62,969 nt of DNA from positions 1 through 62,969 of the forward strand of contig JAHHIL010000026.1 in the NCBI GenBank assembly GCA_019358975.1, written 5' to 3'. This DNA is from Trichocoleus desertorum ATA4-8-CV12 (GTDB taxonomy: Bacteria > Cyanobacteriota > Cyanobacteriia > FACHB-46). The translations under genes and the position numbers were made by a program. The notes beneath the pieces were generated by a model. It saw only the letters and a list, made by a program, of their open reading frames with translations. It was not told the DNA's origin and ran no database searches. Positions 34,191 through 43,039 of the stretch are shown here, piece after piece. Position 1 is the first letter of the stretch, and every line of letters begins with the position of its first letter.

Positions 34191-35579
34191 CTACGACAAA
34201 GAATTCACTTTCAACTCCTGACAAAAACCATCCACCACCCGATCCAATGCCACCGCCCTTGATGCCTTAAACAACAAGCGATCGCCCGGTTGCACCAACT
34301 GCCTTAACCGCTCCACCACCGCCTCATGCCCATCAAACTCTTCCGTCGCCACTCCCACCGCTCCAGCCACCATCGCGGCACTTTCCGCTGGATCAGCCAA
34401 AATCAACAAATAGTCTAAGCCCAGTTGCGCTGCCATCGCCCCTACTTGCTGGTGAAACTCCGGCGATCGCTCCCCCAACTCCTTCATCGTGCCCAGCACA
34501 GCAATATGACGCTGACCCGGAGTTTGAGCCAGCAGCTGCAAAGCCGCAATCATCGACTCCAGCCCAGCGTTGTAAGTCTCGTCCAAAATCACCACATCAT
34601 TTGGTAGCTCATGGCGTTTGGCACGACCACTGGGTAAATCAACCGCCAAACCTGCCTGCAATGCTTCCCAGCTAATATTCAAGCATTTGGCAACCACGAG
34701 AGCAGCCAAATAATTGAGAGCATTGTGTTGCCCCGGTAAGGGCAAGGGAAACTCTATCCCCTCTACGGTTAGGGTATTGACATCGACTAACTGTCCTTGA
34801 AAATCCCCACCCGCTAAACCATAGCTGATAGTTTTACCCGACCAGAGCGTCGCGGCAGTCGGCAATAACAGAGGGCTGTCGTGATTGAGAATTGCGATTC
34901 CCGTGGGAGCCATTTCCGCTAGCAGCTCACATTTGGCTTGCGCGATCGCCTCCTCTGAGCCTAGTCGTCCAATATGGGCCGTCCCCACGTTGGTAATCAC
35001 CGCAATATCAGGCCGCGCAATTTGCGTTAGCAGAGCAATTTCTCCCGGACCTCGCATGCCCATCTCAATCACGGCATAGTCATGCTCTGGCTCTAGTTCT
35101 AGTAGAGTTTTCGGCACTCCAATTTCGTTGTTGTAATTGGCTTGCGTTTTCAGCACTCGTCCCTGGGTTGCCAACACCGCGCCAATCAGTTCCTTCGTGG
35201 TGGTTTTGCCCACTGATCCCGTCACAGCAACCACTGGAATTGCACATTGGTCTCGCCACCACCGCGCGATCGCTTGATACGCCTGTAACGTATCTGGCAC
35301 TTGGAGCAGTGGCAAAACCCCGGTCTTTTCCCGTGGCGGAGTTTCCTCGTAAGCTTGATCCACAATTACCGCGATCGCACCTTGGTCTAGAGCGGCACCG
35401 ACAAATCTATGTCCATCGAACCTTTCACCCCGCAAAGCAACAAACACTTCTCCGGGTTGAAGACTGCGAGTATCGGTACCAATGCCTGTTGCTTGCTGCG
35501 CCAAATCTGCGCTAGAGAGGTTGAGAGGTGTGGCGTGCAGAATCTCTACGAGCTGGGATAGGGTGACACGACAAGGCAT
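34191..35579 (-). CDS. murF: UDP-MurNAc-tripeptide:D-Ala-D-Ala ligase
   Basis: 462 residues. Adds D-Ala-D-Ala to the UDP-MurNAc tripeptide in the cytoplasm. The P-loop VVAVTGSVGKTTTKELI, the N-terminal uridine-binding domain (GIGTDTRSLQPGEVFVALRG), the central AVIEMGMRGPGEIALL and the C-terminal VVILDETYNAGLESM are all intact. Length is normal. It is a single gene whose upstream DNA carries the structured region at 35699-35923. Confidence 0.96.
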   Translation of the reverse strand: MPCRVTLSQLVEILHATPLNLSSADLAQQATGIGTDTRSLQPGEVFVALRGERFDGHRFVGAALDQGAIAVIVDQAYEETPPREKTGVLPLLQVPDTLQAYQAIARWWRDQCAIPVVAVTGSVGKTTTKELIGAVLATQGRVLKTQANYNNEIGVPKTLLELEPEHDYAVIEMGMRGPGEIALLTQIARPDIAVITNVGTAHIGRLGSEEAIAQAKCELLAEMAPTGIAILNHDSPLLLPTAATLWSGKTISYGLAGGDFQGQLVDVNTLTVEGIEFPLPLPGQHNALNYLAALVVAKCLNISWEALQAGLAVDLPSGRAKRHELPNDVVILDETYNAGLESMIAALQLLAQTPGQRHIAVLGTMKELGERSPEFHQQVGAMAAQLGLDYLLILADPAESAAMVAGAVGVATEEFDGHEAVVERLRQLVQPGDRLLFKASRAVALDRVVDGFCQELKVNSLS

Positions 35580-35698
35580 AAGATGCAGTGCTTGAAACTA
35601 AACTAGCTGTGATCATACCGTTGCCTGCTCCTACCCACAGATTCCTACCCACAGATAATGTGACCTCAACCGGGCTCTAAAAATTTTTGATAAATTTA

Positions 35699-35923
35699 GG
35701 TCAATCTTTCCGGAAAAGACTGAGTTGTGGATGTATTGCCTAATGGGAATAAATAAAATCACTATTCCATCATGTGCCTACAAGGTTTTCAGCGCTAATT
35801 GCCCTTCCTGTAGCTCGCTACAACACAGGAAGTCTGGTCAAAAAAGCAGTTAACTTGTAGACTTCAAAGGACTGAAAACTTTACTGAATCTTTAAGCGAT
35901 TAGTGATTTCAGTCACATTGACC
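35699..35923 (+). ncRNA. Candidate structured RNA: nested rod of six helices
   Basis: Six helices nest without conflict. 35699-35705/35917-35923 is 7 bp (GGTCAAT). 35718-35723/35909-35914 is 6 bp (GACTGA). 35756-35764/35901-35909 is 8-9 bp. 35782-35792/35872-35882 is 11 bp with one G-U. 35794-35802/35846-35854 is 8 of 9. 35804-35811/35825-35832 is 8 bp capped by a 13-nt loop. Internal loops separate them. A terminator-like hairpin follows at 35976. The shape is like 6S RNA, but I see no sequence proof of that. It lies between divergent murF and 36087. The strand is assumed from the terminator. Confidence 0.45.
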
Positions 35924-35975
35924 AGTGATCTCGCCCAGTAGGATGGGAAAGTACTAGGATCAAGGCAGTATTGAA

Positions 35976-36008
35976 GTTTACAAGCCCTTTTTGTAAACCG
36001 GGATTTTT
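35976..36008 (+). terminator. Terminator-like hairpin before the gene at 36087
   Basis: Perfect 8-bp stem GTTTACAA-GCCCTTT-TTGTAAAC (35976-35998), then CGGGATTTTT. It lies downstream of the rod-like RNA candidate and 80 bp upstream of the next gene. It could end a small RNA or attenuate the downstream gene. Confidence 0.5.
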
Positions 36009-36086
36009 CCTCAGTATCTACGGAAATTCTCTATTCGCTCTTAATATCAAGCATCATAAATTCCCGCTTAGCCTCCTTTACCAGGT

Positions 36087-37394
36087 GTGGGAGCGCAAAC
36101 TAACGTGACTACTTGGATAGGCCAATACAATCGAGAAATTTCCCCAGAGGAGCAGAAGCTTTATGACCACATGCTCTTCTGTGTTGAGCATGAGTCGCCT
36201 CAGCAGTTACTAGGGCGCTTTCAGTCACTTTTTATTGATGGCATTGGCTATCCAGAACGCGAAATTACCGTTGCGCTCGATCAGCTAATTACCTCTAAGC
36301 TGGCAGAACAAGAATTCAAGTTTGTCTTAAATCGTTGCTGCCACATTTTGATCAACCGTTGGCAGACGCGATCGCAGTTGCAGCAGGCAATTTTAGAATT
36401 GGTCGCTCTGTTTGAGGCCCCTTCGATCCGCCCGATTACTGAGGTATCTCGCACCAAATCAGTGAGACGGTTAAGGGAACTCGTGGCCTTGTTTTGCCAA
36501 AGCGAGCACTGTGCTACCTTGCGCCGTTTAGCGCGAGTGATTATTCAAACCAATGAAGCTCAGCCTCAAGATAACCGCTCTCTAGGAACGCTGATTCGGC
36601 GCTATCCCTACCTGTATGACCACTGCTTGCTGAGTGAAGATAGTTCTTACGAGCATCAGCAAACGATCCGTCAAATTCAAACTCAGGTGCAGCGACAATT
36701 TGAAGTGGACCTGTCGCAGTACGTCACCTATCGAGTGCGGCAGTCTCAAATCATTCGCTTGTCACCGACCTTAATAGAAGCCCGCCAAATTCAAGCGGTG
36801 AAGAATCCCACCCTATTAAGCGACGAAGAACTCTACCAGGCTCTGCAACAATTTGCAGGTCGTGTCGATGGGGATGCTTCCTATCGAGATTTAGCTCAAC
36901 GCTTTCTGCTACATACCAAGTACACGCGATCCTATGCAACCTTTAAGGACGACTTGTACGAGTACATCGTAGACACCATTGATCCAGAGTATGGCAAGCG
37001 GCAATTTAACAATCAGCTTTACCTGCATCTGCGAAATACTTTGCCAGATAACCATGATCAGCCGTTAAATGAGTTTCTGCTAATCAGAACTTGTGCTTAT
37101 TTACTCAACTTCTTGGTCGTAGAAAGTGCCCAACGCCCCAACCATTTCGTGTTTGTTGATCTAATTACAAACTTAGGGGCCACCACTGCCACAGGCTTGC
37201 TACTAAAGATTGTGTTGCTTTGCCGCAAGGTGAGACCCTATCTTGAGAAGCGCTTCTCTATTTTGTTCAATCATTATGAGGCTTGTGCTCGTGAAGGGGT
37301 GCATTGGCTAATTCAGGCGTTGGAGAACCTCAATGTAGCCCTTAGCACTAACTTTGGTGTAGTGGATCTTTCCTACATCCATCAAATTAGTTAG
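36087..37394 (+). CDS. Conserved cyanobacterial hypothetical protein
   Basis: 435 residues, mostly helical and soluble. Start GTG 36087, or GTG 36105 (TTWIGQYNREISPEEQKLYD). Segments such as LNRCCHILINRWQTRSQLQQ and LIRRYPYLYDHCLLSEDSSY look strongly constrained. I recall similar proteins across cyanobacteria without a function. No domain motif is recognised. The 5' region is long and structured. Confidence 0.8.
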   Translation: MGAQTNVTTWIGQYNREISPEEQKLYDHMLFCVEHESPQQLLGRFQSLFIDGIGYPEREITVALDQLITSKLAEQEFKFVLNRCCHILINRWQTRSQLQQAILELVALFEAPSIRPITEVSRTKSVRRLRELVALFCQSEHCATLRRLARVIIQTNEAQPQDNRSLGTLIRRYPYLYDHCLLSEDSSYEHQQTIRQIQTQVQRQFEVDLSQYVTYRVRQSQIIRLSPTLIEARQIQAVKNPTLLSDEELYQALQQFAGRVDGDASYRDLAQRFLLHTKYTRSYATFKDDLYEYIVDTIDPEYGKRQFNNQLYLHLRNTLPDNHDQPLNEFLLIRTCAYLLNFLVVESAQRPNHFVFVDLITNLGATTATGLLLKIVLLCRKVRPYLEKRFSILFNHYEACAREGVHWLIQALENLNVALSTNFGVVDLSYIHQIS

Positions 37395-41396: not shown

Positions 41397-42866
<1,470 letters not shown>

Positions 42867-43039
42867 TTGGTTAACGATTGTATCACCTGGGTCTTGGCGC
42901 GATCACCGAGTTCTCAAATCTCAGGAAACCTAAGTCTTTTGTAATCAAGAGAGTTACGGGGTGAGGAGGCGATCGCTCGAAGCAAATAGAACTGCGATCG
43001 CTGGGGCTGGACGGATAAGCCTTAGCTCACGGCTGCTCT

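Follow-up and report, generated by a model that had tools for sequence, protein, structure and literature searches.

The region at positions 35699-35998, between murF and a conserved gene of the + strand, is very probably a class II cAMP-CRP promoter, predicted to serve the gene that probably starts at 36105. The window, i.e. the whole stretch of 62,969 nucleotides analysed here, is a contig of the cyanobacterium Trichocoleus desertorum ATA4-8-CV12, and the first-pass annotation had seen a long nested rod-like RNA at this place. The rod-like look is best explained by a CRP promoter that is wrapped, in this genus only, in inverted repeats that mimic a structured RNA on either strand. The parts of the promoter and the adjacent genes are the following:

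34191-35579, - strand: murF, the divergent neighbour (TIGR01143, 443 bits, cut-off 288.6)
35902-35917, + strand: CRP-type operator AGTGATTTCAGTCACA of the form GTGAY-N4-RTCAC, from profile score and orthologue conservation
35939-35944, + strand: -10 box TAGGAT of the predicted class II promoter, beginning 21 nt after the operator
35951-36104, + strand: predicted 5' leader of 154 nt, delimited by means of the -10 box and the start codon
35976-35998, + strand: leader hairpin GTTTACAA...TTGTAAAC with an 8-bp stem
36105-37394, + strand: target gene (probable start GTG 36105) for a conserved cyanobacterial all-alpha protein of 429 aa

A conserved CRP site with a -10 box at fixed distance

In a class II promoter of the SyCRP1 type, the palindrome GTGA-N6-TCAC lies near -41.5 and is followed after about 22 bp by a TAN3T box. 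The palindrome is present at 35902-35917 and TAGGAT follows at an offset of 21. When scored with a profile built without the genus itself, AGTGATTTCAGTCACA is the top site of the 63-kb window with 24.9 bits, the runner-up reaching 10.6 bits.

Among 54 non-identical regions upstream of orthologues of the + strand gene, 31 contain the form GTGAY-N4-RTCAC, several of the 31 belonging to congeners so that the independent cases are fewer; resampled sequences of the same composition contain on average 0.095 sites and at most one (200 resamplings). The site-bearing regions represent the family of the organism itself and the families f16, f25 and f18. Most sites lie 178-386 nt ahead of the aligned start, with a single locus (L018) at 556. 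Although the sites were selected without regard to such boxes, each of the 29 distinct sites has a TANNNT motif that starts 20-22 nt past its 16-mer, a spacing that is thus fixed across genera. Four loci without the strict site (L034, L067, L081 and L037) have a version with one or two mismatches and a -10 box at the same offset. The strict site is absent from about 40 % of the upstream regions, even though a CRP is encoded in the majority of the corresponding genomes for which this was checked.

The two inner positions of the palindrome are occupied by T..G in 14 cases, C..A in 7, T..A in 3 and C..G in 3, a distribution unlike that of Watson-Crick pairs (Fisher p 0.013). Such combinations fit a protein site made of one GTGAT and one GTGAC half, not an RNA stem. 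The idea that GTGAY/RTCAC forms an RNA hairpin instead of an operator was rejected, the inner positions being without pairwise covariation.

The argument for the promoter rests on phylogenetic conservation and not on the bare pattern; a genome-wide count of site plus -10 box is uninformative (3 matches versus 7 for a reversed control). A scan for plain sigma-70 promoters gave no match on either strand of 35500-36200, as expected of a class II promoter, in which a good -35 element is missing.

Regulator and cyclases

A CRP orthologue is encoded in the same genome (G000:C18:89545-90267). It carries a GTGA-reading recognition helix with the motif RETVTR, and its cAMP pocket contains the cyclic-nucleotide cassette FGEMAPLDEVPRS (FGEM...PRS). 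It is similar to solved Crp-family proteins (best 1e-29; E. coli CAP 1e-16), and 28 of 29 further genomes included in the comparison encode relatives with 80-99 % identity; the only one that does not is an incomplete genome. The NtcA-type proteins of the genome read TRVTVTR where CRP has RETVTR. The genome also encodes other regulators of the CRP/FNR family, which might conceivably bind the site. Eight matches to cyclase domains of the adenylate/guanylate-cyclase family are also present.

Target gene and neighbours

The target gene probably starts with the GTG at 36105, 18 nt inside the start at 36087 given by the ORF tool, because its orthologues begin with (V/M)(S/T)TWT and a GGGAG sequence sits about 9-10 nt before this codon. 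Its family is present in 215 of the 291 genomes of the class, paralogues included, and orthologues from other families of organisms yield proteins that are 57-65 % identical. The protein matched no Pfam or NCBIfam family. Its predicted model is all-helical (mean pLDDT 81), and a fold comparison of this model with the PDB returned no significant match. In Synechocystis, CRP governs motility and pili (PMC2633013). By analogy, control by cAMP suggests, without proving it, a role of the target in processes governed by CRP such as these.

A paralogue of the target gene lies elsewhere in the genome (G000:C7:32404-33636, 51 % identity), and the matched stretch crosses one TGA and one TAA codon. The same paralogue contains one TGA and one TAA in the congener G002 and one TGA in G001; it may be a pseudogene or reflect short frame extensions.

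Outside the genus, 8 of the first 27 orthologous loci likewise have a divergent murF upstream. In Synechocystis, murF may be a SyCRP1 target, a point that forms no part of the argument here. Near the murF start, a 14-nt tandem duplication (TCCTACCCACAGAT twice, 35629-35656) occurs only in the genome of the window, both congeners having one copy. Further along, a TPP riboswitch (RF00059, 68.2 bits) at 42777-42873 on the - strand is located directly upstream of an ORF of the same strand (41397-42770), which looks like thiC; this would be an ordinary riboswitch arrangement.

The rod and its helices

The helices named in the first-pass annotation do exist. The arms 35782-35792/35872-35882 are 91 % complementary over 11 nt and those of the proposed apical helix (35804-35811/35825-35832) match at 8/8 positions. 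The six-helix rod into which they had been assembled is nonetheless not the best reading of the region, nor is it preferred by the + strand. The fold of 35699-35998 on this strand has an energy of -75.1 kcal/mol, no better than what shuffling yields (z -1.24, 24 of 200 shuffles as good); the minus strand gives z -3.53. The energy optimum omits the 11-bp helix because 35872-35882 pairs with the arm holding the CRP site instead, and the region of the apical hairpin (35795-35845) does not surpass column-shuffled alignments (z -0.15 and -0.91).

That 6S RNA or a member of another known family lies between murF and the + strand gene, as the nested helices that can be drawn had suggested, has next to no chance of being right. 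The + strand folds no better than shuffles over the 300 nt, as just described, no Rfam family matches there even at E 10, barring a chance CRISPR repeat, and no 6S is detected in the window; the 6S RNA of the genome is found at G000:C2:291025-291212 with 89.8 bits, and 6S itself is rejected here. In addition, when the upstream regions of 26 other loci were aligned by their CRP site, they folded like their controls (mean z -0.7/-0.6 versus -0.6/-0.3 for controls further upstream).

The alternative proposal of a structured 5' leader does not hold for most of the rod, which would be promoter DNA upstream of the transcript because the predicted start at ~35951 lies inside it. What survives is the small hairpin at 35976-35998, which falls in the leader. 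Its stem (35976-35983/35991-35998) is complementary at 8/8 positions and identical in sequence in the three congeners. It had been called terminator-like, but a scan for intrinsic terminators on both strands of 35500-36200 returned no site, this hairpin included; the stem is A+T-rich and the T-run starts about 6 nt past it. The leader 35951-36104 as a whole folds much like shuffled alignments (+ strand z -1.3).

A palindromic element confined to the genus

A special fold does exist in a shorter segment, which has the following parts:

35854-35984, both strands fold: 131-bp palindromic element, a 14-bp inverted repeat enclosing P2 and P3, from shuffles and congeners
35854-35867/35971-35984: P1, 14 bp with one G-U on the + strand, the closing helix of the three-way fold
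35870-35914: P2, within the element, its 3' arm holding the CRP site
35918-35963: P3, within the element, containing the -10 box

Between 35850 and 35990 the fold energy has a z of -4.88 on the + strand and -3.74 on the - strand, no shuffle being as good. A second, independent run on the three congeners gave z values of -4.0, -4.7 and -2.7 (+) and of -4.3, -5.0 and -4.1 (-), and in each congener and on both strands no more than 0-4 of 500 shuffles equalled the native sequence. RNAalifold on the three-way alignment yields z ~-5.7 on both strands against column shuffles, a null that does not preserve dinucleotides. Inverted repeats in DNA give folds of equal strength on the two strands, so this symmetry singles out no particular RNA.

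Among the 291 genomes of the class, a covariance model built on the element hit the three congeners alone, with one copy each, and its fold is absent from the 288 others. A DNA search of the same genomes with 161 nt likewise returned the three congeners only, apart from chance-level matches of 18-36 nt (including one of 23 nt in G048), and no plasmid record matched the region. The CRP promoter is far older than the genus-only fold around it, which encloses it exactly (35854-35984 around 35902-35951).

The element and its immediate flanks (35850-35999) are the best conserved intergenic part in comparison with the congener G001 (83-97 % identity, versus 48-77 % in most other 30-nt stretches and 83 % at 36060-36089). 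The promoter alone explains neither why the fold at 35854-35984 is so strong and specific to the genus nor why about 155 bp are conserved among the congeners. The Pantanalinema-type locus L025 has a perfect inverted repeat TTAGGTA...TACCTAA between operator and -10 box, and at L071 and L073 a hairpin CTAAGTG...CACTTAG spans the operator; palindromes around the CRP promoter may have more than one origin.

Could the element be a structured RNA of the genus, whether as a small RNA or within a longer leader from an upstream start? The z of -4.88 on the + strand and that of the alignment would agree with it, and 137 of 138 cells pair on the + strand across the three congeners while the minus strand with the same pairs keeps 124. 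Of the eight pairs that vary, seven are still standard pairs on the + strand, in several cases only thanks to G-U; this is a weak hint of a + strand RNA, although the structure was fitted on this strand. However, the minus strand folds equally well with a structure of its own, and covariation amounts to one double change, a count matched by 161 of 500 shuffles and drawn from three sequences, too few to give the test any power. The scan of 35500-36200 found no upstream promoter on the + strand, the element is missing outside the genus, and the CRP promoter lies inside it. Such an RNA is thus improbable. We give equally poor prospects to a switch, in which P1 of a long + strand transcript would hold 35971-35984 and block the hairpin 35976-35998 while a transcript started at the CRP promoter would be free to form it, even though P1 and the leader hairpin do overlap at 35976-35984.

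The repeats may also be read as DNA. The unit CTTGTARACTTCA at 35854-35866 recurs in reversed orientation at 35972-35984, and shorter copies repeat near 35779 and 35991. Copies of an operator for a second regulator, for example a looping repressor, could thus flank the CRP promoter. The two 13-mers are found nowhere else in the genome and are identical across the three congeners, their position on both sides of the promoter would suit a two-site operator, and they fall within the best conserved intergenic part noted above. Against this, a regulator with a single target would be unusual and P2 and P3 are left unaccounted for; we know of no regulator that recognises a site of this type. We regard a two-site operator as a minority possibility, to be ranked above an RNA fold because the signal is strand-symmetric.

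The first-pass annotation had also offered a decayed palindromic element. The sequence is indeed palindromic and its special fold is real for 35854-35984, but far from having decayed, it is intact in the genus and single-copy. Its 131 bp, bounded by terminal inverted repeats of 14 bp, are reminiscent of a miniature transposable element inserted in the intergenic region. We consider this very unlikely: each of the three congeners has one copy without obvious target duplication, and neither further copies nor an empty site in a close relative were seen. Moreover, operator and -10 box also occupy the equivalent position in other families, so they were not carried in by an insertion.

Proposed mechanism

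In the mechanism that we propose for the CRP promoter, a dimer of cAMP-bound CRP (SyCRP1 type) would sit on 35902-35917, its centre about 41.5 bp before the start point. It would stand in for the -35 element beside RNA polymerase, which would hold TAGGAT at 35939-35944 in the manner of class II activation, and a rise in cAMP would switch on the + strand gene at 36105. The start point is predicted at ~35951, which would place the operator centre at -41.5; binding of CRP, activation and cAMP dependence are predicted likewise, from the sequence. The genus element might add a second layer of control around the old promoter, as a looping two-site operator or through a choice of promoter that sets the leader fold, an idea that we hold to be unlikely.

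Significance and comparison with known systems

Cyanobacterial CRP targets are reported to be poorly conserved, the most conserved ones being common to five genomes (PMC2633013), and a CRP target kept across many genera would rank among the more conserved. If the prediction is correct, a gene family present in most genomes of the class, but without Pfam, NCBIfam or fold match, would, in four families at least, be linked to signalling by cAMP, and a conserved CRP target would offer a handle on an uncharacterised protein. The analysis also corrects a tempting misreading, since a set of palindromic operators can resemble a structured RNA.

Nested helices can be drawn here as they can for 6S RNA (RF00013), but a match to this family is lacking. 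The class II CRP promoters of E. coli have in common with the present one a centre near -41.5 that replaces the -35 element (a predicted position in our case) and a regulator with the motif RETVxR; the target here differs in having no link to carbon catabolism as far as known. The published CRP sites of Synechocystis and Anabaena have the form TGTGAN6TCACA with TAN3T about 22 bp downstream (PMC2633013). The first base is T in these sites and mostly A or G in ours, and the orthologous group of the target matched no CRP target listed in the main text of that article. A promoter inside a long inverted repeat, as in this genus, also differs from known cyanobacterial CRP promoters. In the form of the palindrome and in the spacing to the -10 box, by contrast, it equals the promoters of SyCRP1 in Synechocystis PCC 6803 and of AnCRP in Anabaena PCC 7120, and the distance of 185 bp upstream of 36087 is comparable to that of the Synechocystis slr0442 site, tabulated at -189 (PMC2633013).
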